Under the pieces are notes generated by a model. That model saw only the letters and a program-made list of their open reading frames with translations, was not told where the DNA came from and made no database searches. A stretch of 64,000 bases of DNA from Anaerolineaceae bacterium (GTDB lineage Bacteria; Chloroflexota; Anaerolineae; Anaerolineales; Anaerolineaceae). The translations under genes were made by a program, and so were the position numbers. The stretch lies in contig JAENYZ010000003.1 in NCBI GenBank assembly GCA_016841525.1, positions 310,001 through 374,000 of the forward strand, read 5' to 3'. Positions 19,829-33,609 of the stretch are shown piece after piece; the first letter of the stretch is position 1; each line of letters begins with the position of its first letter.

Positions 19829-20713
19829 TTGAAAGCAGATCTCCTATTACTCATAACGGCCGCCATTTGGGGCTTTGCCTTTGTCGCTCAGCGCATGGGC
19901 ATGGACTCCATGGGGCCGTTTACATTTAACGCCATTCGTTTCAGCCTGGGTGCGCTTATTCTGCTGCCCCTGTCCCTTATTCAAACCAGGCGCGGGAACC
20001 ATCACAGGCTGAAGTCTGTTTTCAAAAACTATCGTTGGCCTATTGTGGTAACAGGATTGATCTTGTTTGGCGGCGCATCCTTACAGCAGATTGGTTTGGT
20101 AGGTACGACGGCTGGAAAAGCCGGGTTTATCACCGGTCTTTATGTGATCCTGGTGCCGCTTTTGGCTTTGTTCTGGGGGAGTCAGACGCATATTGCGCAC
20201 TGGGCTGGGGCAGTTCTTGCTGTTGTGGGCTTGTATTTGCTCTCAGTCAAGACGGGTTTTCAATTGTCGCCTTATGACCTGGTGGTCTTTGCAGGTGCCT
20301 TTGTTTGGGCGGGGCATGTTCACCTGATTGACCGTTATTCCGATAAGGTTGGCCCCATACAACTTTCGATATTCCAATTCGCGATTTGCGGCGTTCTGAG
20401 CGCAATCGCCGCAGTTCTGTTTGAGAATGTCACTACCGTTGGCATTGCGGACGGACTCTGGCCGCTTCTCTATGGGGGCTTTTTATCTGTAGGGCTGGCT
20501 TATACGCTGCAGGTGGTGGCACAGAGAAAAGCAAACCCATCCCACGCGGTGATCATCCTCTCCCTGGAAGGCGCTTTTGCTGCGCTTGGCGGCTGGTTGG
20601 TTTTGAATGAAATACTCACCCCCCGTGACCTGCTGGGTTCCGTCCTGATTCTTGGGGGGATGTTAATTTCACAAATTTTAGGGAAGGCTAATAAACATAA
20701 CACAGTTCCCTGA
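19829..20713 (+). CDS. EamA/DMT-family membrane transporter
   Basis: 294 residues, about ten hydrophobic helices in two EamA repeats (each with the xWGxxF and P-x(7)-R type segments, for example IWGFAFVAQRMGMDSMGPF at the start). Drug/metabolite transporter superfamily, probably an exporter of amino acids or metabolites; substrate unknown. The start is TTG at 19829, since the first ATG would cut into helix 1. The ribosome site (GAGAG) is weak. 24 bp after sodX, so it may be co-transcribed with the sod genes. Confidence 0.8.
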   Translation: MKADLLLLITAAIWGFAFVAQRMGMDSMGPFTFNAIRFSLGALILLPLSLIQTRRGNHHRLKSVFKNYRWPIVVTGLILFGGASLQQIGLVGTTAGKAGFITGLYVILVPLLALFWGSQTHIAHWAGAVLAVVGLYLLSVKTGFQLSPYDLVVFAGAFVWAGHVHLIDRYSDKVGPIQLSIFQFAICGVLSAIAAVLFENVTTVGIADGLWPLLYGGFLSVGLAYTLQVVAQRKANPSHAVIILSLEGAFAALGGWLVLNEILTPRDLLGSVLILGGMLISQILGKANKHNTVP

Positions 20714-20954
20714 AATAATTTTTCCATGCTTCCGTATTATGAATGTCAATCCATAATTAATCTACACAAATTAACAGATTTATTGCTTATGAGAAATTCG
20801 AGATGACTTCCAAATTAAATTTTAATCCAATACAAAATTATAAATTTTATGGATAAATTTAAAAAATCTATTCTGAACGTAATATGTGTCATAAACTCCC
20901 CTTTGACTTGCAACGTTTATAAAAAAGACCCTTCCGTTATTATTAATTGACTTA

Positions 20955-22502
20955 TTACATACTATTAACGGGAGACAACATGTCCCTATATTCGGTAGGT
21001 GTCTTGTCAGTAATTTTTTTAAACACTTGACTAAAATACCGATAATCTGAAAAACCAGACTCTTGGGCAACCTCGTAAATTTTCATAGGGGTACTTGATA
21101 ATAATTGTTGTGCTTTCAATACCCGAATCTGGTTTTTATAATTTGTGAATGCTATTCCCATGTCCTTCTTAAACTTGTGGCTTAAGTAGGAGGAAGAGAC
21201 ATGTATTTGATCGGCTATCCAACCTAATGAAATATCAAAGGAAATGTAATCAATAGAAAGAATTATGGTTTTCAATATTAAATCATCAATTTCTATATAA
21301 TTCCTTTGAAAATACTCATGGATTACTTTGAAGTGATTGTCAACAGTTTCAAATTCATCTTCAATTGTCTGAAAATTGGTAGTAAAGATTCCAGGTTTAG
21401 GTCTTGAAATATTGTCAGGAATTCTAATTTGTACTGAACAACTCAATAATTCAAGTTTATTTCTGAAATAAACAGTAGATGAGATGTTCATACTTTCCTT
21501 GAGGGTATTTAGATATAAGGATTGTAAAATCTCTCTAAATGATGTATAAGATTTTTTTAACAAACTATTGCCTAATTTTGAAAGTATCATTGTTGAGTTT
21601 TCTGTCTCATGCACATTTTTTTTCCTGCTTAAGGATCCCGGTTTTATTAGACTAAGATCCTTAGCAAAATAGCCAAGTTTGTAAAATTTTCGAAAATCGG
21701 AATAATTTATCTTTAATTCATTTAAGTGAATGCCATTACTGAAGAAAAGAGAGAAATGTATTTTAGTTTCGTTTAGTAGAACTAATCTTACTTGATTTAA
21801 TAATTCTTCATAAATTATTTCAGAAGTTTTTTTAATTGTGTTTGGAATCTCATTCACCAAAATGCAAATTACACCATCCTGCATGAGTAAAACTTCACCT
21901 CCCTGGTACTCATGTAAAATGTTTCTAATTTTATTTAATGAATCAACTGATATTTTCTCTAATCTTTGAGCTGGTCTTGGCAATAACAAATTAATAACCG
22001 GAGTAAGTTTCCAAGAATAATTGTCCCGTAATTTGAAAAGTTTTTCAGTTGAAAAATCTCCATTTCCCAGCAATTTTGTTAGTGTGTTGAAATATTTTTC
22101 ATCTTGTTGTTGATTTGGTGGGTTTGATTGTTTTTGTATAAAGGCGAATGCATCATTCAATTTTTCTATGAAAATCGTATCATCGAAGTATGTTTTACTT
22201 AAAGTAGCTATAATTCGATGAATATTATCTAACCTTGATTCTCTTATTTCGCTTAATAGAATTACTACAAAATCCTTTGTAATTCCCTCCATCAATTCAA
22301 TATACTTTTCTATACCGATTATAGTTATTGAGATATCAATGATTATTATTTGAGGTTTAAATTTTTTAAACTGTTCTAAGCCCAGTGCGCTATTATATTC
22401 AACACCAATTAATTGAACATCCCCATATGTTGAAGCAATCAGTTGATGAATATGTTCACCAAAATGCAAGCTTTTTACGAGTATAAGAATTTTTGTTTTC
22501 AT
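20955..22502 (-). CDS. AraC-family regulator with a degenerate receiver-like N-terminus
   Basis: 515 residues. The C-terminal 100 residues are a typical AraC double helix-turn-helix (signature SGFSDYRYFSQVFKK, then TPTEYRD). Residues 1-125 resemble a response-regulator receiver with Asp56 in IIIIDISI, but the acidic pair near residue 10 is replaced by Lys-Ser and the conserved Lys is not evident, so phosphorylation is doubtful. The middle 270 residues are unrecognised. No histidine kinase is near. It is AT-rich like the catabolic genes that follow and faces away from them across a 732-bp gap, so it is the best candidate for their regulator. Confidence 0.8.
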   Translation of the reverse strand: MKTKILILVKSLHFGEHIHQLIASTYGDVQLIGVEYNSALGLEQFKKFKPQIIIIDISITIIGIEKYIELMEGITKDFVVILLSEIRESRLDNIHRIIATLSKTYFDDTIFIEKLNDAFAFIQKQSNPPNQQQDEKYFNTLTKLLGNGDFSTEKLFKLRDNYSWKLTPVINLLLPRPAQRLEKISVDSLNKIRNILHEYQGGEVLLMQDGVICILVNEIPNTIKKTSEIIYEELLNQVRLVLLNETKIHFSLFFSNGIHLNELKINYSDFRKFYKLGYFAKDLSLIKPGSLSRKKNVHETENSTMILSKLGNSLLKKSYTSFREILQSLYLNTLKESMNISSTVYFRNKLELLSCSVQIRIPDNISRPKPGIFTTNFQTIEDEFETVDNHFKVIHEYFQRNYIEIDDLILKTIILSIDYISFDISLGWIADQIHVSSSYLSHKFKKDMGIAFTNYKNQIRVLKAQQLLSSTPMKIYEVAQESGFSDYRYFSQVFKKITDKTPTEYRDMLSPVNSM

Positions 22503-23234
22503 TATTTAATTTCTATTAGTTTATGTATTACTACACACACAACGAGTAAGGGGAGACATTAAGTAATCTCAGTTGAATCTGCAACGGTTAAGATTACTAT
22601 ATGTGTAATGTATTACTTCTGAATCTGATTCCATAGACATTATACATCTTAAAATTTTATCTTTTTATTTCTTCAATGATCACTTTAAAGAGATTCGACG
22701 AATTTCCATCATTAAATAATTCAAAATCAACTAATTTATGGCATTTCAAATCTTACCTCACTAAAGTTAAAATTTTTATTTTATTATTTGTTGGGTGAAT
22801 GGAATGTGGGTATAGCATTAAATAAAACCATAAATCTAAAAATTTTTGATAGTTATATGATTTAGCCCTACAAAAAAAGATTCTCATAAAAAAAACAAAC
22901 AAAGATTTCAATGAGAACCAATCTGTATGTAATTTTTTCCATCAAACAAATATTTATAATGGATTTATCAATGGAATTTACCTAAAAACATTAAATTCAT
23001 GAATCACCCATATAAAGATATCACGACCAATTTGTAGTACTACGCCAATAATAACTTATACAATTCTCTGGAGGTGCTAAATATAACATAAAAAATTACA
23101 CAATTTACCATCAGGTTATATTGCGCTATTAAGACCAATCAGAAAGAATAGTTTGAGGCTGAAAAAACAGATTGGACCTTAATAAAAAGTCAAATCAGTT
23201 GAAGTTATGTAGAAATTAAAAATAAGGAGTTTTT
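22503..23234 (+). other. Long AT-rich intergenic region before the aquaglyceroporin gene
   Basis: 732 bp with no credible ORF. Most of it shows nothing I recognise. Near the 3' end an imperfect inverted repeat (TATTAAGACCAATCAG at 23127-23142; CAGATTGGACCTTAATA at 23168-23184) lies 50 bp before the gene. The left arm is preceded by GCGCTATT, related to sites at 25657-25704 and 33804-33821. A GGAGGTG at about 23072 has no start codon behind it. Confidence 0.4.
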
Positions 23235-24113
23235 ATGAACAGTTCATTAAAAAGACAACTTTTAGGTGAGTTTATTGGCTGTGTGTTTCTCACTGGATTA
23301 GGTCTTCAGGCATTGGCAATTGCAATAACTACGGGAGCTTTAGATTTCATTGGATCCTTAATCATTTTCGTCTTTGCCGTTTGCTTTGCTGTAATATATG
23401 TTGCCCCCTTATCTGGAGCTCACTTAAACCCAGCCATAACAATTTCATTGGCAGTATTTGCTGGTTTCCCGAAAAAGAGGATAATACCCTTCATAATTAT
23501 CCAGGTTGCTGGCTGCTTTGTTGGAGCATTAATAGTTTATTTCTTCTGGAGTGGTCCTATAAAAGCATATGAAGCAGCAAATGCCATAGTGAGAGGTGCT
23601 CCAGGGTCTGAAGTAACTGCAATGATCTTTGCTTGTTTTTCCCCGCATCCTTTTATTTCGCAGGCTTCTGGTTGGGGTACTTCTGTAGTGCCAACATGGA
23701 AAGCAATTTTAGTCGAAGTTTTGGGGACTGGCATGCTTGCTCTTTCAGTATTTAGTTTCAATGACCCCGATAATGATCTTGGCCCTAAGAAAGGTATGTT
23801 TGGGTTTATGATCGGCTTAGTGCTCTTGATTTACGTCGCTATAGCTGCACCATTAACCATGGGCGCAGTAAATCCTGCCAGGGATTTTGGACCTCGATTA
23901 GCAGCTTATCTGCTTGGATGGGGAGAGATAGTTCTTCCCGGTTTACCATCAGGCGCTGGCGGTCCATTCTATATATACTGGATTGGACCAATTATTGGAG
24001 CATTAGCTGGTGGTGCACTTTGGTTTAAAGTGATTAAACCGAATGTCATTAAAGAAAAGTTGGCAGCTGCACAATCGATTATTGAAACAGATGCCATCGA
24101 AGAAACAATTTAA
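23235..24113 (+). CDS. MIP-family channel, aquaglyceroporin type
   Basis: 292 residues with six predicted membrane helices and both pore motifs: HLNPAITISLAVF (first NPA) and GAVNPARDFGPRLAAYL (second NPA). Asp directly after NPAR is typical of glycerol facilitators rather than water channels, so it should pass small polyols. It has a long loop between the halves (about residues 115-150). Ribosome site AAGGAG, 5 nt before ATG. 43 bp before the dipeptidase and upstream of the RLP operon, which supports uptake of an uncharged polyol used by that operon. Confidence 0.88.
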   Translation: MNSSLKRQLLGEFIGCVFLTGLGLQALAIAITTGALDFIGSLIIFVFAVCFAVIYVAPLSGAHLNPAITISLAVFAGFPKKRIIPFIIIQVAGCFVGALIVYFFWSGPIKAYEAANAIVRGAPGSEVTAMIFACFSPHPFISQASGWGTSVVPTWKAILVEVLGTGMLALSVFSFNDPDNDLGPKKGMFGFMIGLVLLIYVAIAAPLTMGAVNPARDFGPRLAAYLLGWGEIVLPGLPSGAGGPFYIYWIGPIIGALAGGALWFKVIKPNVIKEKLAAAQSIIETDAIEETI

Positions 24114-24156
24114 AAAAACCAAAAAAAAATAGAAAACAAGTTAAAGGAGAAAAATC

Positions 24157-25626
24157 ATGAGTGGTGTATTAGAAGGACTTGAACCAAAAAAAGTAATGAA
24201 CTATTTTGAAGAAATTAGTAACACCCAGAGAGGTTCTGGATTTGAAAAGCCGATGAGCGATTATCTTGTGGCATTTGCTGAAGAGAGAGGCTTTGAAGTA
24301 TGGCAGGACGATGTTTATAACATTTGTATGAAAGCGCCTGGTACAGCTGGTGGCGAAAATGCAAAACCCGTTATTCTGCACGGCCACATGGATATGGTTT
24401 GGAATGTTGCAGATGGTGTGGAGCATGACTTTTTAAAGGACAAATTGGATCTATATATTGAAGATGGTTGGATCAAAGCTCGTGGGACAACATTGGGTGC
24501 TGATAATGGGATCGGTGTTGCATATATGCTTGCCCTAATGGATTCGCCAGATATACCCCATCCCCCATTGGAGTGTGTCATTACAGTTATGGAGGAATTA
24601 GGGAAAAAGGGTGCTGATGTTTATGACATGAGCCATTTGACCGGAAAAAGAATGATTGATTTTAACTGGATTGATGATAAACAACTTCTGGTTGGGTGTG
24701 CGGGCGATCTATCCGTAAAAATCACAGTTCCACCTAACTGGGAAAGTGCGCCTGCAGGGTTACTTCCGATGACTCTTAAGTTATCTAACATGAAAGGTGG
24801 CCACTGTGAATGGGATATCCACCTTGAGCGTGGAAATGCTATTGGTTTGATGGCAAGAGCCTTGAGTGAATTATCAGAAACAGTTGATTACCGTCTTGCA
24901 AGTTTTAATGGTGGCGTTCAGAATAATGTAATTCCAGCAGTGGCAGATGCTCAAATCTTAGTTGCCCCTGAAGCTCAGGAAAAAGTCACAGAGGTTGTTA
25001 ACCAACTTGCTGAAACTTATAAGAGTGAATTTGATGTTGCAGACCCCGACATACTTTTGACAGTTACGTCAGGTGGCAAGTATCCCGAAAATGTGTTCTC
25101 TGAATCTACCACAAAGAGTCTTTTGGGTTTGGTGTTTACACTTCCTAACAGTGTGACTACGAAAAACCTGAAGAATCCTGGATATACTGAATGCTCTCTC
25201 AATCTGGGCATTCTGCGAACAGAAGAAAGCCAAGTCTGGATGATCACGACAATTACAAGTGCTGTAACTTCTCGTAAACATGCTGTCAGAGATCAGATTT
25301 TCACCCTAGTAGATTTCGTGGGTAATGGAGCTAAAGCTGAGCAATTTGGTGTCGATGCGCCAGAATTTGCTCACAATCCCGAATCTGAACTGGCAAAAAT
25401 TGCTCAAAAAGCATACATTGAAAGCTGGGGAGAGCCGCCAAAATTGGAAAATAACTTCTGTAGTCTACAACTTGGGCTCTTTACTCAGGCGTTGGGTCTC
25501 GATTGTGTAGGTGTTGGCACATTGATTAATGATGTACATTCCCCAAAAGAAAGAATGAATGTTGAGTCAGTTGAAAAAGTTTGGAAGATGATTAAGAACT
25601 TCATGAAACACCTATGCGAAGAATAA
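24157..25626 (+). CDS. M20-family aminoacyl-histidine dipeptidase (PepD-like)
   Basis: 489 residues. Metal ligands of the M20 fold are visible: HGHMDMVW (about residues 75-82), LGADNGIGVAY (Asp ligand) and the catalytic Glu pair in VMEELGKKGA; a C-terminal NDVHSPKERMN His closes the site. The dimerisation insert lies between. Members split Xaa-His or other dipeptides in the cytoplasm. The Glu pair is preceded by Met, where PepD usually has Asp. Its link to the sugar-type genes around it is unclear; it could hydrolyse an amide- or peptide-linked substrate. Ribosome site AAAGGAG, 9 nt before ATG. Confidence 0.82.
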   Translation: MSGVLEGLEPKKVMNYFEEISNTQRGSGFEKPMSDYLVAFAEERGFEVWQDDVYNICMKAPGTAGGENAKPVILHGHMDMVWNVADGVEHDFLKDKLDLYIEDGWIKARGTTLGADNGIGVAYMLALMDSPDIPHPPLECVITVMEELGKKGADVYDMSHLTGKRMIDFNWIDDKQLLVGCAGDLSVKITVPPNWESAPAGLLPMTLKLSNMKGGHCEWDIHLERGNAIGLMARALSELSETVDYRLASFNGGVQNNVIPAVADAQILVAPEAQEKVTEVVNQLAETYKSEFDVADPDILLTVTSGGKYPENVFSESTTKSLLGLVFTLPNSVTTKNLKNPGYTECSLNLGILRTEESQVWMITTITSAVTSRKHAVRDQIFTLVDFVGNGAKAEQFGVDAPEFAHNPESELAKIAQKAYIESWGEPPKLENNFCSLQLGLFTQALGLDCVGVGTLINDVHSPKERMNVESVEKVWKMIKNFMKHLCEE

Positions 25627-25656
25627 CCATCATTACGTTAGTCGAGTAGCTTTTAT

Positions 25657-25704
25657 GTAATAGCGCGACTCAATAAATTGGTACACAATTGATCGCGCTA
25701 TTAC
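25657..25704 (+). promoter_or_regulatory. Long inverted repeat upstream of the RLP operon, candidate operator
   Basis: GTAATAGCGCGA (25657-25668) and its exact complement (25693-25704) flank TCAAT/ATTGA, giving a 17-bp interrupted palindrome. No T-run follows, so it is not a typical terminator. It lies 67 bp before the RLP start, in the 144-bp gap. Each half reads AATAGCGCGA followed by (C)TCAAT, which resembles the sequence at 33804-33821. Confidence 0.55.
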
Positions 25705-25770
25705 AATAATTAATTAAATTTCATCGACATAAAAAAATATTAAATCAAAATTAGCCGGTTGGAGGACAGA

Positions 25771-27006
25771 ATGAAATTTGAAACATTGACTTTACCCGAA
25801 AATGTCAGAGAAGAATACTTGATCGCAACATATTATATGAAATCCGATTCTGAACCAGATCTATTTGATTGGGTCAAACTTGTTGCTGCTGATCAAAGTG
25901 CAGGAACTTGGACACATGTCGAAGGAGAGACACCAGAAGTAGTCGAGAAATATGGCGCTAAGGTGATTGGAATTTATTCTATGGCTCAAGAAAGAGCATG
26001 CGTGGCACGAATAGCATTTCCTATAGCTAACTTCCCAAAATATTTGCCAATGATCATGAGTACAGTCGCGGGTAATGTGTTAGGTCAGGATGGGATCAGA
26101 TTATTGGATATTGAATTCCCCGATTCATTGATTGAAGATTTTCCTGGGCCTATTATGGGAATTGAAGGAATACGTGAACTATTGAATGTTCCTGAACGGC
26201 CGATAGTAGGTGCAATTTTAAAGCCTTGTATTGGTGTAACACCTGAAGTTAGCGCTGAAGGCGCTGCAAAAGCTGCTTTAGGGGGTGCGGAAATCATTAA
26301 AGATGATGAATTACAGAGCGATCCAGATTATTCCCCTATGATAGAACGAGTTCGCACGGTTATGAAATATTTGCGAGAAATTGGGAAGGATAAAAGTGTT
26401 TTATATGCTGTGAACATCACAGGCGAACGTGTCCTTGATAGGGCTAAACGAGCTATCGATGCCGGTGCGAATGCAATTATGGTCAACTACCAAACCCTTG
26501 GATGGGGGGTTGTCGAGGACATGGTTAGGGCATTAAAGCGCGAAAATGTAACCATTCCAATATTTGGTCATTGTGCAGGTATGGGTGCATATTATAGATC
26601 TCCTGTAAATGGAATTTCAACCGCACTTTCTTTAGGAAAACTTCCAAGAATGATTGGAATGGACATGTCACTTGTATATCCTGATAGCGGCCGATTTGGA
26701 ATCAAAACAAACGAGCTTGTAGAAGTACATAACATGTTAACTTCCCCAATGGGCAATCTTAAACGTTCATTTACTACTATAGCAGGTGGTGTGCACCCCG
26801 GTACGATTGAATATTTGATGGATTTACTCGGCAATGAAACCATCCTTATGGCTGGTGGTGGGATTTATGGCCATCCCATGGGGCCAACTGCAGGTGCTCG
26901 TGCAATCCTCCAAGCAATTGAGGCAGTTGATGCAGGATTTTCAGTAGAAGAAGCTGCAAAATCAAATAAAGAATTAGATGCTGCACTTAGATACTGGTCG
27001 AAATAA
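25771..27006 (+). CDS. RuBisCO-like protein (form IV type), probable decarboxylase, enolase or hydrolase
   Basis: 411 residues; start at the ATG 5 nt after GGAGG, not at the TTG four codons upstream. It has the RuBisCO large-chain fold. Retained site residues: the carbamylated Lys and metal ligands in IIKDDE (Lys177, Asp179, Glu180), Lys151 in AILKPC, His267 in FGHC, Thr46-Trp47, and the phosphate-binding AGGGIYGHP. Changed ones, in spinach numbering: Lys177 to Cys153, Arg295 to Cys268, Ser379 to Ala338, Glu60 to Asp41, and no VGKLEG loop 6. It therefore should not fix CO2. Known relatives act on a phosphorylated beta-keto or diketo sugar by enolisation, decarboxylation or C-C hydrolysis. First gene of the seven-gene operon. 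No methionine-salvage genes are near, so the MtnW role is unlikely. Confidence 0.85.
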   Translation: MKFETLTLPENVREEYLIATYYMKSDSEPDLFDWVKLVAADQSAGTWTHVEGETPEVVEKYGAKVIGIYSMAQERACVARIAFPIANFPKYLPMIMSTVAGNVLGQDGIRLLDIEFPDSLIEDFPGPIMGIEGIRELLNVPERPIVGAILKPCIGVTPEVSAEGAAKAALGGAEIIKDDELQSDPDYSPMIERVRTVMKYLREIGKDKSVLYAVNITGERVLDRAKRAIDAGANAIMVNYQTLGWGVVEDMVRALKRENVTIPIFGHCAGMGAYYRSPVNGISTALSLGKLPRMIGMDMSLVYPDSGRFGIKTNELVEVHNMLTSPMGNLKRSFTTIAGGVHPGTIEYLMDLLGNETILMAGGGIYGHPMGPTAGARAILQAIEAVDAGFSVEEAAKSNKELDAALRYWSK

Positions 27007-27029
27007 TTATACAAGAGGAGAAAATTGTT

Positions 27030-28022
27030 ATGGAAAAGCAGACCCTCATTGAAATGTTTCGGATTATGGTCCGAATCAGAGAATTTGAAAGCGAAGCGAT
27101 TGAATTGGCGAAAAGGAATGAAACCAGGGCTGCTGTACATACTTATATAGGTCAAGAAGCTATTGCAGCTGGTGTATGTGCACATATGTCAAACCAAGAT
27201 TTAATCACTTCTACTCACAGGGGACATGGACATTGTATTGCTAAAGGCGCGGATTTAGAAAGAATGTTTGGAGAGTTGTTGGGAAGAGATGGTGGATATT
27301 GTAAAGGAAAGGGCGGTTCCATGCATATAGCAGACCTTTCTACCGGGAATTTGGGGGCAAATGGCATTGTTGGTGGAGGAATTCCATTGGCAGTTGGAGC
27401 AGCGCTTAGTTTGAAAATAAGCAAAAGTAAAAATTACGTTGTTAGCTTTTTTGGAGATGGCGCAACAAATCAAGGTTCGTTCCATGAATCGTTGAACCTT
27501 GCATCAATTTGGGCTTTACCGGTCATATTTATCTGTGAGAACAATGAATATGCGATTTCAACCAACGTAAGTAAATCAATAAATATTGAAAATATTTCAG
27601 AAAGAGCAACTGCATACGGTATTTTGGGAAAGAGTGTGGATGGTAATAATGTAGTTTCGGTTTATGATGACATGCAAATGGCTGTTGAACATGTGCAATC
27701 AGGCAAAGGTCCAGTCCTCCTTGAAATGAAAACGTATCGGATAAAGGGCCATTATTTTGGCGATAATCAAAATTATCGTACCAGGGAAGAAGTTGATTTG
27801 TGGAAACAAAAAGATCCCATCAATACATGTGAGACAAAGCTGCAAAACGATTATGGTTTATCTTCTGAAATTATTTCTAAAATCAAAAAAGAAGAAACTA
27901 AAAAGGTTCTTGATGCTTCTACAAGAGCAAAATTAATGAGTGAACCTGAAATAGATGATTTAACCGAAGATCTCTATGATCTTAGCTTTCACAACATCAA
28001 ATGGATAAGTCTTCAAAAATAG
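27030..28022 (+). CDS. Acetoin/2-oxoacid dehydrogenase E1 component, alpha subunit
   Basis: 330 residues, the normal size for AcoA/PdhA-type E1 alpha. The thiamine diphosphate motif starts GDGATNQG (residues 142-149) and ends ENNEYAIST. The segment STHRGHGHCIAKG and the KGKGGSMHIAD loop are typical of acetoin dehydrogenase and pyruvate E1 alpha. With the beta subunit it would decarboxylate a 2-oxoacid, or cleave an alpha-hydroxyketone or diketone, and pass the acyl group to a lipoyl carrier. 23 bp after the RLP gene, with ribosome site GAGGAG. Confidence 0.9.
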   Translation: MEKQTLIEMFRIMVRIREFESEAIELAKRNETRAAVHTYIGQEAIAAGVCAHMSNQDLITSTHRGHGHCIAKGADLERMFGELLGRDGGYCKGKGGSMHIADLSTGNLGANGIVGGGIPLAVGAALSLKISKSKNYVVSFFGDGATNQGSFHESLNLASIWALPVIFICENNEYAISTNVSKSINIENISERATAYGILGKSVDGNNVVSVYDDMQMAVEHVQSGKGPVLLEMKTYRIKGHYFGDNQNYRTREEVDLWKQKDPINTCETKLQNDYGLSSEIISKIKKEETKKVLDASTRAKLMSEPEIDDLTEDLYDLSFHNIKWISLQK

Positions 28023-28040
28023 TTAGATAAAGGTGATTCT

Positions 28041-29033
28041 ATGAGAAATATATCAATGCGTGAAGCAATAAATGAAGCTTTGCATATAGCATTTAACAGT
28101 GACGAAAATATTTTTATGATAGGTGAGGATATAGCAACCTATGGTGGGCAATTAAGATGTAGCTATGGTTTGGTGGAAAGATTTGGACCAGAGCGGGTAA
28201 GAGATACGCCTATTTCAGAAATGGCCATTGTAGGTGCAGGTGTTGGTGCTGCTATAGCAGGTAAACGTCCTATTGTTGAGTTATCTTATATTGATTTCTT
28301 AGGGTCATGTTTTGATCAGGTTTTAAACCAGGCTGCAAAAATTCGTTATATGTATGGAGGTTATGTAAATGTTCCTCTTGTGATACGCACGCAATGTGGT
28401 GCTGGTTTGGGCAATGCAGCACAACATTCACAATCCTTAGAAGCAATTCTTGCTCATATTCCTGGAATCCGAGTTGTAATACCCTCCAATGCTTACGATG
28501 CAAAAGGGTTATTATTACATGCGATTCGAGATAATAACCCGGTTGTATTTATTGAACACAAAGCACTTTATAAGAAAAAATGTCACGTTCCTGAGGATCC
28601 TTACGAAATCGACTATACCTCAGACATAAAAAGAAAAGGCGATGATGTGACAATAATTACTTATTCGGCTATGGTAGATCGTTCTTTACAAGCGGCAGAG
28701 CAACTTAATAGTGAATTTGGCATAGACGCTGAAGTAATAGATGTGCGTGTTCTGGAACCTTTAGATTTACAACCTTTGATCGGGTCAGCACAAAAAACGG
28801 GTCGGGTTGTTATTGTACATGAAGCATGTAAAAAGGGAGGTTTTGGAGGTGAGTTAGCAGCCCAGATTCAGGAACATGTGTTTGATAGGCTTAAAGGTCC
28901 AATCTTACGTGTAGCGGCGCCAGATGTACCAGTTCCATTTGCAGATAATCTTGAACGGCAATATGTTCCAGATATTTCAAAAATCATTGAAGCAGTTACT
29001 GAAGTCATGAATTTTCATAGGAGCGAAGTGTAA
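28041..29033 (+). CDS. Acetoin/2-oxoacid dehydrogenase E1 component, beta subunit
   Basis: 330 residues of the transketolase-like pyrimidine-binding and C-terminal domain pair. Typical points are MIGEDIATYGG (activating Glu near residue 29), the loop GNAAQHSQSLEA, and the C-terminal VHEACKKGGFGGEL and RVAAPDVPVPFA. 18 bp after the alpha subunit. Partner for the E1 alpha above in an alpha2-beta2 enzyme. Confidence 0.92.
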   Translation: MRNISMREAINEALHIAFNSDENIFMIGEDIATYGGQLRCSYGLVERFGPERVRDTPISEMAIVGAGVGAAIAGKRPIVELSYIDFLGSCFDQVLNQAAKIRYMYGGYVNVPLVIRTQCGAGLGNAAQHSQSLEAILAHIPGIRVVIPSNAYDAKGLLLHAIRDNNPVVFIEHKALYKKKCHVPEDPYEIDYTSDIKRKGDDVTIITYSAMVDRSLQAAEQLNSEFGIDAEVIDVRVLEPLDLQPLIGSAQKTGRVVIVHEACKKGGFGGELAAQIQEHVFDRLKGPILRVAAPDVPVPFADNLERQYVPDISKIIEAVTEVMNFHRSEV

Positions 29034-29035
29034 TT

Positions 29036-30088
29036 ATGAAACTATTAATAACCACATATTTAGATGAACGATATTTGCCAATTTTAAACGAAATGTTTGA
29101 AACAATAGAATATGCAGGAATGATGCAAACTGGACGAGTGCTAACAGAGGACGAGCTCATCCAAGCTGGTTCTGATGCAGATTGCATATTATTAGAATTT
29201 GATCCATTAACTCGCTATGTACTCCAAAATTGCAAAAATCTAAAACTAATTGCCTCAGTTCGGGGTGGGGCACGGGCTAACATTGATGTGAGGGCAGCGA
29301 CCGAAATGAGAATTCCTATCATCAATGTTCCTGGCAGAAACAAAGATACTGTTGCTGATTTTACAATGGGCTTATTAATTGCATTAAGTAGAGGAATAGC
29401 AAAAGGTCACCATCTGATTATGAACAATGTTATTACTGATAATAAAACCTTTAGCGAAAATGGGTTTTGCGAGACTGATATTAACTGGGTGGGTTCGACG
29501 GAAGAAAAGTTTGCATATCTTCAATTCAAAGGGCCTACACTTAATGGGAAGCTATTAGGGCTAATTGGTTATGGTGCTATTGGTCGCGAAACTGCAAAAA
29601 GAGCCTTAGCATTTGATATGAAAGTTCTAGCATTTGATCCATATGTTAATCCAGAGACAGTAAACGAAAATGTCACCTTTGTTGATCTTCCCGAATTAAT
29701 GAAAATCTCCGATTTTATTTCAATTCATGTACCCATTACTAAAAGTACGATAGGATTGGTAAATTCAGAATTACTCTCATTAATGAAGTCTGACGCCTAT
29801 ATCATCAACACTGCCAGAGCAGTTGTTATGGATTATGACAAACTAATTGACATGCTACAGCAAGGGCAAATAGCAGGTGCAGCATTAGATGTATTTCCTG
29901 TTGAACCTTTACCAGAAAATCACCCCTTGTTGGAACTCGATAACGTTGTTTTGACTCCCCACATTGGTGGGTGTAGTTTTGATCCATACGAACGATCTTA
30001 TAGAATGTTGACCGAAGATATGAAGAGATTTATGAATGGAGAACAACCGGAGCATATATACAATCCAGATGCCTTAATTACCAAATAG
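29036..30088 (+). CDS. NAD-dependent D-2-hydroxyacid dehydrogenase (PGDH-like)
   Basis: 350 residues. NAD motif GYGAIG (from Gly178). The catalytic set is Arg261 (NTARAV), Glu290 (DVFPVEPLP) and His309 (TPHIGG). Closest in style to 3-phosphoglycerate dehydrogenase-like enzymes without the regulatory ACT domain. It would interconvert a 2-hydroxyacid, perhaps phosphorylated, and the 2-oxoacid, a natural supplier of substrate for the E1 genes just upstream. Only 2 bp after E1 beta. A 25-residue insert around residues 130-155 is unusual and may shape the substrate pocket. Confidence 0.85.
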   Translation: MKLLITTYLDERYLPILNEMFETIEYAGMMQTGRVLTEDELIQAGSDADCILLEFDPLTRYVLQNCKNLKLIASVRGGARANIDVRAATEMRIPIINVPGRNKDTVADFTMGLLIALSRGIAKGHHLIMNNVITDNKTFSENGFCETDINWVGSTEEKFAYLQFKGPTLNGKLLGLIGYGAIGRETAKRALAFDMKVLAFDPYVNPETVNENVTFVDLPELMKISDFISIHVPITKSTIGLVNSELLSLMKSDAYIINTARAVVMDYDKLIDMLQQGQIAGAALDVFPVEPLPENHPLLELDNVVLTPHIGGCSFDPYERSYRMLTEDMKRFMNGEQPEHIYNPDALITK

Positions 30089-30130
30089 CTTTGATTAATG
30101 TCAGAAAATACTATTAAAAGATTGATTTTT

Positions 30131-31669
30131 ATGAATGCTTTATTCTTAGGAATAGATATTGGAACAACAGAAGTTAAATCGGCTCTGTTTGATGAAATGG
30201 GAAGAGAACTTCGTCTTGTTAAGAAGACCATGCAACCCATATATTCACCAAATGGGCGTGCGACACTTAACATGGAAGAATTATGGGATTGTGTAGCACA
30301 AATAATTAAGCAAACAATTGAAGGAGCAGAGACGTTTGGCGAGATCAAGGCTATTGGCGTTACTGCTATGGGTGATGGGTTATGGATGCTCGATGAAGAC
30401 GGAAAACCCATATCAGATGCTACTTTGTGGGTGGATGGTCGGGCAGTTGATTATATTAATCAATGGAAAAATGAAGGCATTATCCAGGATAGTGGTCGGG
30501 TTGTATTCGCAGGCTCACCTTTGCCATTGAGTGCATGGTTCTTTGACCACCAATCTGATTTAATGAAGCGGTGTGCTCAAATATTATTCTGTAAAGATTG
30601 GATCAAGTATTGTTTAACTGGAATAGCAGCAACTGAACAAACCGACCTTTCTGACGCATCTCTTATTGATGTGTGGAATCGGAAATTTTCAATTGATTTA
30701 GTAACAAAGTATGGCGTCCCACAAATTGCAAATCTGCTTCCGCCCATAAAAACCTCCACAACAATAATGGGAGAGGTTACAAAATCAGCATCTCTGAAAA
30801 CAGGAATACCGGCAGGAATTCCTGTTGTTAATGGGGCTATCGATGTGGTTTCTTCAGCAATTGGTACAGGTGTAATTGATCCCTTGCAAGCATGTACTGT
30901 GGTGGGAACCACAGTTTATAATGCAGTCGTGGTTGATTCAATTACAGAAACTGACCTTACCAAAGAGAATTCTCCATCCATAATTTGTCATGCTGATGAA
31001 AACTTATGGATGTTAACGATGGGAACTATGTTAGGAACGCCCAATCTTGACTGGTTTATTAAAGAATTTTACTCAACCTCAGGAAATTTATCTTCATTTA
31101 CTGAATTAGAAAATTCGATGAAGAAAATTGGCCCCGGTGCAGGTGGAATCATTTTTCATCCCTACCTCGGTCAAGGAGGTGAACGAGCACCCTTTGTCAA
31201 TCCGAGTGCTGCAGCTCAATTCTTTGGAATTAAAAGTCATCATACGAAAAGCCACATGCTCCGTGCTGTTTATGAAGGAATTGGTTATTCCATGAAGGAT
31301 TGCTATAAACATCTGCCAGTACAACCCAAGAATATCCGTATTGTTGGGGGAGGAAGTGCAAGTGCGTTCTGGTGTGATATTTTTGCCAATTGTATAGGCA
31401 TGCCTATTCAAGTAACTCATGGCAATCAAATTGGCGCATTGGGTGCTGCAATTCTAGCCGCAGTTGGGGTTAATCATTATTCGAATCTTCATCAAGCGAC
31501 TGATAATATGGTTCGTATAAAAAACACTTATGAACCAGATTCGGCAAAAATAAAAATTTATGAAGAAAACTATGCTATATATAAGCATTTATATGAAAGT
31601 CTGTGGGAAGTTTGGGATGAACATCATAAACTTTGGAGAGGAACAAACGAAAGGATAACAATAGAATGA
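30131..31669 (+). CDS. FGGY-family carbohydrate or polyol kinase
   Basis: 512 residues from the ATG at 30131, which puts the phosphate-binding strand LFLGIDIGTTEVKSALFD at residues 4-21 as usual for the family; an ATG at 30098 would add 11 residues, and neither has a strong ribosome site. Two actin-like ATPase domains. Candidate catalytic base Asp238 (NGAIDVVSSAIG). The substrate loop GVTAMGDGLWMLDEDG with WVDGRA resembles erythritol- or xylulose-type kinases, from memory, so a C4-C5 polyol or ketose is likely. ATP-dependent phosphorylation would trap the substrate entering by the MIP channel. The stop overlaps the lipoyl carrier start (ATGA). Confidence 0.85.
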   Translation: MNALFLGIDIGTTEVKSALFDEMGRELRLVKKTMQPIYSPNGRATLNMEELWDCVAQIIKQTIEGAETFGEIKAIGVTAMGDGLWMLDEDGKPISDATLWVDGRAVDYINQWKNEGIIQDSGRVVFAGSPLPLSAWFFDHQSDLMKRCAQILFCKDWIKYCLTGIAATEQTDLSDASLIDVWNRKFSIDLVTKYGVPQIANLLPPIKTSTTIMGEVTKSASLKTGIPAGIPVVNGAIDVVSSAIGTGVIDPLQACTVVGTTVYNAVVVDSITETDLTKENSPSIICHADENLWMLTMGTMLGTPNLDWFIKEFYSTSGNLSSFTELENSMKKIGPGAGGIIFHPYLGQGGERAPFVNPSAAAQFFGIKSHHTKSHMLRAVYEGIGYSMKDCYKHLPVQPKNIRIVGGGSASAFWCDIFANCIGMPIQVTHGNQIGALGAAILAAVGVNHYSNLHQATDNMVRIKNTYEPDSAKIKIYEENYAIYKHLYESLWEVWDEHHKLWRGTNERITIE

Positions 31670-31908
31670 AAAAAGAAGTGATTATGCCTAAAGTAGGACT
31701 TGACATGGAAGAAGGTTCCATCCTGACATGGTGGAAAAAGGTTGGTGACCATGTCGAAAAAAGTGAAGTTCTTATGGAAATTGAGACTGATAAAGCCGTT
31801 ACTGAAATCGAATCTTCAATTTCTGGTACTTTAGTAGAAATCGTTGTGCCTGAAAATGAACTTGTTGAAATTGGCACTATCGTCGCTTGGATTGAAACAG
31901 ATGAATGA
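31666..31908 (+). CDS. Free-standing lipoyl carrier domain protein
   Basis: 80 residues, exactly one biotinyl/lipoyl domain. The lipoylation site is Lys43 in EIETDKAVTEIES at the beta-turn, with the typical opening MPKVGLDMEEGSILTWWKKVGD. In ordinary dehydrogenase complexes this domain is fused to the E2 acyltransferase; here it is a separate gene. Start ATG overlaps the kinase stop, with AAAGGA 9 nt before it. Its stop lies 8 bp inside the next gene. It would shuttle acyl groups between the E1 and E2 encoded beside it. Confidence 0.92.
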   Translation: MKKEVIMPKVGLDMEEGSILTWWKKVGDHVEKSEVLMEIETDKAVTEIESSISGTLVEIVVPENELVEIGTIVAWIETDE

Positions 31909-32569
31909 AAGGGTAATTAAACTTTCAGGCTTACAAAAAGCCATGAGCCGTCAAATGATTTCCAGTTGGACAGAAGTACCACAGTTTCACTTAGAAACAG
32001 AGATAAATTGTGCTGGATTTGTAAATTTACGGAAAGAACTTCCATACCACCCGTCCTTTACAGCAATTTTCACAAAAATTATTGGTGACTGTCTTGTGGG
32101 TCATCCCTATCTTAATGCATCTTGGGTTGATGATCACATTATCACATATGATTCTGTAAATATTGCAGTTGCTATGGATACACAACGTGGGCTTTTAGCA
32201 CCTGTAATTTCGGAGGTAGCAAATAAATCTCTCGAGGAAGTAAATTTAGCCATAGAAAGTTACAAGCAAAAATCACATAAAGGCAATTTTACGAGTGAAG
32301 AACTCACGGGCGGAACTTTCACTATCAGTAATCTTGGTATGTATCCAATCAGGTCATTTTCTGCAATTATTAATGCGCCTCAAGTTGCTATTCTAGCTGT
32401 TCCACAAATGTATAATATTCCTTCAATAATGGAGAACGGAACAATAGGGATTAAGAAGATTATGAGACCTGTCCTATCTTTAGATCATAGAGTTGTTGAT
32501 GGGGCTACAGGTGCAAAATTTATAAGTGATTTTGTTGAGCTCATTGAAAAACCAGAAAAGATAATTTAA
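31901..32569 (+). CDS. Acyltransferase (E2) catalytic domain without lipoyl or subunit-binding domain
   Basis: 222 residues from the ATG at 31901, which overlaps the lipoyl carrier by 8 bp; a longer open frame upstream is only the alternative frame of that carrier. The protein begins at the catalytic domain itself (VIKLSGLQKAMSRQMISSWTE) and has the chloramphenicol-acetyltransferase-like active site DHRVVDG with His196 and Asp200. It transfers the acyl group from lipoate to CoA. No lipoyl and no peripheral subunit-binding domain is present, so the usual docking of E1 and E3 must be different. No E3 gene is in the window. Last gene of the operon, convergent with the alcohol dehydrogenase 14 bp away. 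Confidence 0.9.
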   Translation: MNERVIKLSGLQKAMSRQMISSWTEVPQFHLETEINCAGFVNLRKELPYHPSFTAIFTKIIGDCLVGHPYLNASWVDDHIITYDSVNIAVAMDTQRGLLAPVISEVANKSLEEVNLAIESYKQKSHKGNFTSEELTGGTFTISNLGMYPIRSFSAIINAPQVAILAVPQMYNIPSIMENGTIGIKKIMRPVLSLDHRVVDGATGAKFISDFVELIEKPEKII

Positions 32570-32583
32570 TCATCTTATTCAAA

Positions 32584-33609
32584 TTAGCCATTAATCCTGA
32601 TTAATATATGTGGATATTGACCAGATTCGGTTGCTTTATACGCATACGTTGCTTCTTCCATGGAATAAACATGAGAAATTAGGGGCTCCAATATAAGCTT
32701 ATCCATAACATTTTGAATACGGGGAAGCATATAAGGAGCCATATGAAATGGAACTAATTTTGCTTCTTTTATAAACAATTCCGAAGTATTAATTGGAAAT
32801 CGGCGGTTTAGTCCATAAAAACTCGAATAAGCCAATGTGCCCTGTCTGGCAAGTAAAGCAGCAGCGATTGAAAGCATCTCCAGATTTCCACTGGCTTCGT
32901 AAATAACATCGTATCCCAATAAATTAGTTGTGTTTAAAGCCATGGATGAAATATTTTCTTGATCAGGATCAATACAGATTTCTGCTCCAAGTTGCATGGC
33001 TAACTTCCGATTAGCTTCAACGGGTTCAATTATAGTAATTTGCCTTGCACCGCACATTTTGGCTAATTGTAATAATATGAGTCCAGGAACAGTTCCACCA
33101 ATAATTAAAACACTATCTCCAAGATGTAAACCAGATCTTTCTATTCCTCGTAATGAATGCCCTATAGGATCGGTTAGGCATGCCTCCTCCATTGAAACGG
33201 AATCAGGTATTCTAATCAATTGGCGGGAATGCCAAACAATATATTCAGACATTGTGCTTTGTGTTGGTTTAAGATTTAAACAGTGGCTTTCTCTACCTGT
33301 GCGGCAATAAAAACAATGTCCACACTGATTCCAAGCATATCCACTAACACGCATTCCCTCCTTAAATCCCGATTCTTGGGCAGATTCTCCAAGCTCTACG
33401 ATCGTTCCAGCCATTTCATGACCATTCCCTGGGAAGAGAATTGGACCCCATCCCAACATATCATCATCTTGCCTAAAGTACGGCATTTCATCTGGACAAA
33501 TTCCAGCAAACGCAACTTTTATTTTTACATCATTTGGCCCATTAATTTCTGGTTCCTTAATTTCAATTATTTCTGTTTCCCTTCGCCCAGTAATTATTAT
33601 TGATTTCAT
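32584..33609 (-). CDS. Zinc-dependent medium-chain alcohol/polyol dehydrogenase
   Basis: 341 residues. Catalytic zinc ligands Cys38 (GICPDE) and His64-Glu65 (GNGHEMAG). Structural zinc Cys96, 99, 102 and 110 (CGHCFYC...C). NAD(P)-binding Rossmann motif near residue 165 (VLIIGGTVPGLI) with Gly-Gly-Thr in place of the usual GxGxxG. Family of threonine, sorbitol and butanediol dehydrogenases; would oxidise a secondary alcohol. On the opposite strand but compositionally like the operon, and its upstream region carries an AATAGC-type site shared with it. Confidence 0.88.
   Translation of the reverse strand: MKSIIITGRRETEIIEIKEPEINGPNDVKIKVAFAGICPDEMPYFRQDDDMLGWGPILFPGNGHEMAGTIVELGESAQESGFKEGMRVSGYAWNQCGHCFYCRTGRESHCLNLKPTQSTMSEYIVWHSRQLIRIPDSVSMEEACLTDPIGHSLRGIERSGLHLGDSVLIIGGTVPGLILLQLAKMCGARQITIIEPVEANRKLAMQLGAEICIDPDQENISSMALNTTNLLGYDVIYEASGNLEMLSIAAALLARQGTLAYSSFYGLNRRFPINTSELFIKEAKLVPFHMAPYMLPRIQNVMDKLILEPLISHVYSMEEATYAYKATESGQYPHILIRING

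Follow-up and report, generated by a model that had tools for sequence, protein, structure and literature searches.

Two overlapping genes at positions 31666 to 32569 of the window, the whole 64,000-nucleotide stretch of Anaerolineaceae DNA that was analysed, encode an 80-residue lipoyl protein directly beside a 222-residue dihydrolipoyl acyltransferase (E2) that consists of the catalytic domain only. The pair probably functions as a genetically divided E2 in a system of the 2-oxoacid-dehydrogenase type, in which the lipoyl group would be supplied in trans. This reading is based on the domains, motifs and frames of the two genes, the absence of a subunit-binding domain (PSBD), the presence of E1 alpha and beta in the same gene run, the recurrence of the arrangement, selection on related pairs, and genes for LipA, a lipoyl ligase and LpdA in the genome. 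A precedent for lipoyl action in trans is given by OdhA (PMC10415282). The split is a recurrent, little-described variant and no one-off, as at least 14 genomes sampled from the phylum carry it, along with named proteobacteria and haloarchaea. We infer the activity, lipoylation, action in trans, coupling and substrate class of the system from sequence. The pair and its neighbourhood comprise the following features:

20955 to 22502, reverse strand: AraC-type regulator (PF12833), divergent, possibly the regulator of the cluster
23235 to 24113, forward strand: MIP/aquaglyceroporin-type channel (PF00230, E 6.8e-37), upstream
24157 to 25626, forward strand: M20 family peptidase, upstream
25759 to 27006, forward strand: RuBisCO-like protein, about 410 aa (PF00016/PF02788), likely ATG at 25771
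27030 to 28022, forward strand: E1 alpha subunit (ThDP-dependent), 330 aa (PF00676, E 1.7e-83)
28041 to 29033, forward strand: E1 beta subunit, 330 aa (PF02779/PF02780)
29036 to 30088, forward strand: D-2-hydroxyacid dehydrogenase family protein, 350 aa (PF02826, E 4.7e-55)
30098 to 31669, forward strand: FGGY carbohydrate kinase, up to 523 aa (PF00370/PF02782)
31666 to 31908, forward strand: stand-alone lipoyl protein, 80 aa, ATG at 31666, stop to 31908 (PF00364)
31901 to 31908, forward strand: start/stop overlap ATGAATGA, 8 bp, read from the sequence
31901 to 32569, forward strand: catalytic-domain-only E2 (dihydrolipoyl acyltransferase), 222 aa, ATG at 31901 (PF00198)
32584 to 33609, reverse strand: zinc alcohol/polyol dehydrogenase (PF08240/PF00107), convergent, possibly a pathway member

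The lipoyl and E2 genes are read in different frames, and each protein is filled by a single domain. Biotin_lipoyl (PF00364, E 9.8e-20) covers residues 3-75 of the lipoyl protein, nearly the entire chain, while 2-oxoacid_dh (PF00198, E 9.9e-65) spans residues 3-221 of the E2 and positions 4-230 of the 232 in the model; Pfam detects no other domain in the E2. The predicted lipoylation site, Lys43, lies within an (E)DK-type motif, ETDKA (codon 31792-31794), and the alignment places H196 and D200 of the E2 within DHRVVDG, which corresponds to the HxxxDG active site. A genome-wide profile search places no PSBD (PF02817) in this locus, even with the threshold relaxed to E <= 0.1. The architecture of a classical multidomain E2 is thus lacking twice over, with the lipoyl domain on a separate ORF and no PSBD on the E2 chain; the E2 catalytic domain is also not fused to E1, as it is in OdhA/KGD. 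The initial annotation, which described two genes with an 8-bp overlap, no PSBD, and an intact Lys43 and His196/Asp200, holds on all of these points. A single-sequence AlphaFold model of the 222-residue E2, built without an alignment, has a pLDDT of 34, too low for interpretation.

From the RuBisCO-like protein through E1 alpha, E1 beta, the 2-hydroxyacid dehydrogenase, the FGGY kinase and the lipoyl protein to the E2, the genes follow one another on the forward strand, either slightly overlapping or spaced by 2-23 bp. The start of the lipoyl gene overlaps the stop of the kinase gene by 4 bp, and the 8-bp overlap that follows is consistent with translational coupling of the lipoyl and E2 genes. 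E1 alpha and E1 beta (27030-29033) are thereby encoded alongside the E2. E1 beta scores above the cut-off of NF006667 (357.7 against 321 bits), whereas E1 alpha scores below that of TIGR03182 (349.7 against 393.85 bits), its nearest models being of the pyruvate type; the FGGY kinase also stays below its cut-off (TIGR01312, 298 against 380 bits). The C-terminal region of E1 beta displays no pattern that distinguishes the partners of split E2s from those of full-length E2s, and scans for promoters and terminators yield nothing above chance.

The GC content of the operon run is 0.387, compared with 0.44-0.49 across most of the remaining window, and on this ground the operon was probably acquired by transfer. 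Among the sampled genomes, the cluster occurs in one genome of the genus. GC falls to 0.35-0.40 over window positions 20000-32600, as in an acquired island.

The cluster contains no E3 gene. An LpdA-type gene adjoins a canonical E2 elsewhere in the genome (contig C9, L043), and the genes for LipA (above its cut-off) and an LplA/LipB-type ligase sit together on contig C3. The machinery that a lipoyl carrier needs is thus encoded. Apart from the split pair, the genome has three E2s, each an ordinary lipoyl-PSBD-catalytic chain, and all four PSBD matches found genome-wide (E <= 0.1) fall within them. One E2 of canonical type in this genome (L046, G000 contig C7:19.7-23.2 kb) carries two tandem PSBDs and is preceded by a fused E1 alpha-beta gene of 696 aa, with genes for a ribulose-phosphate 3-epimerase and a MocA-type oxidoreductase alongside.

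A short lipoyl ORF adjoining a catalytic-only E2 (about 230-271 aa) is found in 13 other sampled genomes of the phylum: G046, G116 (two loci), G273, G371, G364, G125, G344, G384, G401, G204, G324, G310 and G139, corresponding to loci L061, L108, L110 and L139-L149. The exact lipoyl start is uncertain at four loci: in G344 and G384 the ORF reaches the end of the contig, while in G401 and at one of the G116 loci the longest ORF exceeds the lipoyl domain. Contigs cut at their ends (L060, L081, L109, L111, L113) are excluded from the catalytic-only count. The overlap recurs as well, being the same 8 bp in L108 (G116) and 4 bp in L140 and in Halobaculum lipolyticum (L099). In the latter and in H. 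roseum (L103), the genes for E1 alpha, E1 beta, lipoyl protein and E2 are consecutive, and in Shinella (L054) an 80-aa lipoyl gene and a 225-aa E2 gene are separated by two genes, with an FGGY kinase present. Matches from C. difficile, Natrinema, Paracoccus, Niveispirillum and a Rhodococcus plasmid were set aside, their E2 chains being at least 348 aa long. Separate-lipoyl clusters outside the window likewise have sugar genes close by, with mandelate-racemase-type enzymes in L110, L139 and L140.

L108:628-6359 is one cluster in which a single catalytic-only E2 is accompanied by two E1 systems, one of them fused, and by two free-standing lipoyl genes. A stand-alone lipoyl gene in Rhizobium (L102:9001-11661) is followed by an alpha/beta hydrolase instead of an E2 and then by a broken-up FGGY kinase, and a Clostridioides difficile plasmid (L057:5617-8560) encodes an E2 chain with no lipoyl match and carries the lipoyl domain on the LpdA chain. 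In a clade of catalytic-only E2s (L058:6256-6957, L059:9464-10168, L062:42-737), RPPE replaces NPPQ; no lipoyl gene is seen near these three, and two of them adjoin amidohydrolase and SDR genes. The split pairs of L141, L144, L145 and L146 come from small genomes of about 1.1-1.2 Mb and are preceded by two conserved genes of about 430 aa, which, searched in L146, have no Pfam match at 1e-5. No E1 homologue is seen in the fragments of these four loci.

For the close relatives L141, L145 and L146, dN/dS lies between 0.02 and 0.08 in the lipoyl gene and between 0.04 and 0.12 in the E2 gene, which places the separated genes of these loci under purifying selection; L139 and L110 are too alike for a useful estimate. 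On a quick tree of 80 catalytic domains, in which the window sequence forms a long branch, the 11 catalytic-only sequences require five label changes, and their placement in one clade is rejected (p-AU 0.017), from which it follows that catalytic-only E2s probably arose more than once. A clade of the window, L108 and L110 is allowed (p 0.435). The nearest sequence to the window E2 is a full-length E2 (L118), at 39% identity, the maximum among those sampled.

The initial annotation held that E2 is a single three-domain chain in known complexes. This does not stand, since RefSeq annotates lipoyl and catalytic-only E2 as distinct genes (Shinella and Halobaculum records), human E2o has no PSBD (PMC8146983), and OdhA uses a lipoyl domain in trans (PMC10415282). 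The Halobaculum plasmids NZ_CP126155 and NZ_CP082288 resemble the window in that a lipoyl gene (90 and 103 aa) directly precedes a catalytic-type E2 gene (267 and 259 aa), both following E1 alpha and beta; they differ in being archaeal, in the absence of a kinase or RuBisCO-like gene from the run, and in the position of their E2s elsewhere in the tree. The plasmid pcSHIWSC3 of Shinella sp. WSC3-e shares E1 alpha/beta, an 80-aa lipoyl protein, a 225-aa catalytic E2 and an FGGY kinase; unlike the window, it has two genes between lipoyl and E2, no RuBisCO-like protein, and genes for an aldolase, a GlpD-like protein and an ABC transporter. The actinobacterial OdhA/KGD with AceF is alike in combining an E2 catalytic domain devoid of its own lipoyl domain with lipoyl supplied in trans, but OdhA is fused to E1o and draws on the lipoyl domain of full-length E2p (PMC10415282), whereas in the window a single operon encodes the carrier and the catalyst as two small proteins. 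Single-domain lipoyl proteins are treated as a recognised class in archaea in a survey that, in the accessible part, sorts by domain and does not contain the pairing of a lipoyl protein with a catalytic-only E2 (PMC3904984). The lipoyl protein is not a member of the GcvH family; its match to GCV_H is partial (37 residues) and just below the cut-off (22.1 against 22.2 bits), and Biotin_lipoyl scores far better. GcvH is itself a free lipoyl carrier. The 2-oxoacid dehydrogenase operons of Haloferax volcanii (Wanner and Soppa 2002; van Ooyen and Soppa 2007) reportedly encode an unattached lipoic-acid-binding domain as a gene of its own. Among the open-access papers searched, whether for split E2s, for free-standing lipoyl proteins or for the sugar pathway, none describes a lipoyl/catalytic-only pair. 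The split E2 is new in its RuBisCO-like/FGGY pathway setting and little described; it is not categorically new.

The textbook example of substrate channelling is the large E2 core with its tethered lipoyl arms, and a split of arm from catalyst that recurs in nature makes it possible to test cleanly whether activity requires the tether or just gains efficiency from it. Split E2s also test whether loss of the tether accompanies loss of the large core. The earlier proposal that the usual giant core may fail to assemble is no consequence of the split. E2 cores are made of catalytic domains; truncated E2p that lacks the lipoyl and E1-binding domains still gives a 60-mer core, and human E2o assembles as a 24-mer with no PSBD (PMC8146983). 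The split could accordingly be structurally neutral, the catalytic-only E2 building a 24- or 60-mer with E1 and the lipoyl protein docked by contacts other than a PSBD. What abolishes the large E2 core in Actinobacteria is an altered C-terminal 3-10 helix (PMC10415282). As a crude proxy, a hydrophobic end following the last proline was scored; it is present in 56 of 69 full-length E2s and in 3 of 11 catalytic-only E2s (Fisher p 7e-4, with sequences that are not phylogenetically independent). Most other catalytic-only E2s lack the hydrophobic end, which counts against a large core, whereas the window E2 is among the three that retain it; its version, PEKII, falls short of the usual PxxLLL in length. 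In general, splitting may thus be accompanied by loss of the large core, but the window protein gives no sign of such a loss. A core-forming E2 at this locus is therefore a plausible outcome, somewhat short of an even prospect.

In the favoured reading of a split E2, E1 alpha/beta would act on a substrate specific to the operon, generate the ThDP-bound acyl carbanion and reductively acylate lipoyl-Lys43 of the free 80-aa protein. This protein would hand over its acyl group in trans, and the catalytic-only E2 would pass it to CoA. In this acyltransferase family the active site lies between subunits, so the E2 is expected to be trimeric or larger. The lipoamide dehydrogenase encoded elsewhere in the genome would reoxidise the carrier, LipA and the LplA/LipB-type ligase would lipoylate it, and the overlapping genes would ensure co-translation of carrier and catalyst. 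A more specific version, in which a non-scaffolded lipoyl shuttle diffuses between E1 and a trimeric E2 like an ACP or GcvH, serves a RuBisCO-like-protein/FGGY-kinase sugar or polyol pathway and has evolved repeatedly, is tentative and, taken as a whole, rather unlikely.

The operon is envisaged as a catabolic island, probably acquired, that handles a compound derived from a polyol or sugar, and marks an uncharacterised catabolic pathway joining a RuBisCO-like protein to an acyl-CoA-forming complex. The 2-hydroxyacid dehydrogenase points to a 2-oxoacid substrate, while the kinase, the RuBisCO-like protein and the channel point to a polyol or sugar. E1 could instead cleave an alpha-hydroxyketone or ketose in the manner of acetoin dehydrogenase or transketolase, giving acyl-CoA and an aldehyde. 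Such cleavage would suit the FGGY kinase, RuBisCO-like protein and MIP channel of the cluster and the FGGY kinase genes in the separate-lipoyl clusters of Shinella and Rhizobium, the former with an aldolase in addition. The top family match of the lipoyl protein is likewise the NCBIfam acetoin-dehydrogenase E2 model, but this match covers the lipoyl part only and lies far below the cut-off (78 against 307 bits), so that by this model the locus does not qualify as an acetoin dehydrogenase; the 2-hydroxyacid dehydrogenase would yield a 2-oxoacid, and the nearest models of E1 alpha, though below cut-off, are pyruvate-type. Ketose cleavage is thus conceivable and somewhat doubtful. The RuBisCO-like protein scores below cut-off with the MtnW-like, OiaX and RuBisCO models of NCBIfam, the best being MtnW-like (292 against 409). 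Three homologues at 38-42% identity occur among 300 genomes of the phylum, two of them adjoining an FGGY kinase, and no split E2 lies beside any of the three. The protein retains the KDDE metal-site motif, and its loop-6 lysine seems to be replaced (AGGVHPG).

The pair might otherwise be an extra part of a canonical complex, an OdhA/AceF-like hybrid borrowing its PSBD for E1 or E3. The three canonical lipoyl-PSBD-E2 proteins of the genome and the OdhA/AceF precedent (PMC10415282) would allow this, but the cluster has its own E1 alpha/beta and lipoyl carrier, so borrowing would be required only for E3, and such a hybrid is improbable.

Decay of a full-length E2 into a remnant is very unlikely, and the statement in the initial annotation that the pair is not decaying is borne out: the window E2 does sit on a long branch with no close relative in the sampled set, but both domains are complete, their motifs are intact, each gene has its own start codon, the upstream E1 genes are intact, and related split pairs are under purifying selection.

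A false indel that broke a fused E2 gene could yield adjacent frames with an 8-bp overlap, yet such an error is hardly credible, given that a contig of a different MAG assembly, JAENZK010000180.1 (L042), aligns over all of its 9440 bp to window 23994-33433, gapless and at 99.98% with two mismatches, and carries the same frames (independence of the two samples is not proven), and that other genomes show the same layout. The outcome that would have refuted the initial annotation, a corrected frame with an intervening PSBD, is excluded by the sequence: neither a linker nor a PSBD would fit in any repaired frame, as the two domains overlap. A search for a close homologue with back-translated patterns found nothing but this DNA again, in another MAG. 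JAENZK010000180.1 is binned in a Bacillota MAG labelled Alkalihalobacillus macyae, where it is most likely mis-binned.
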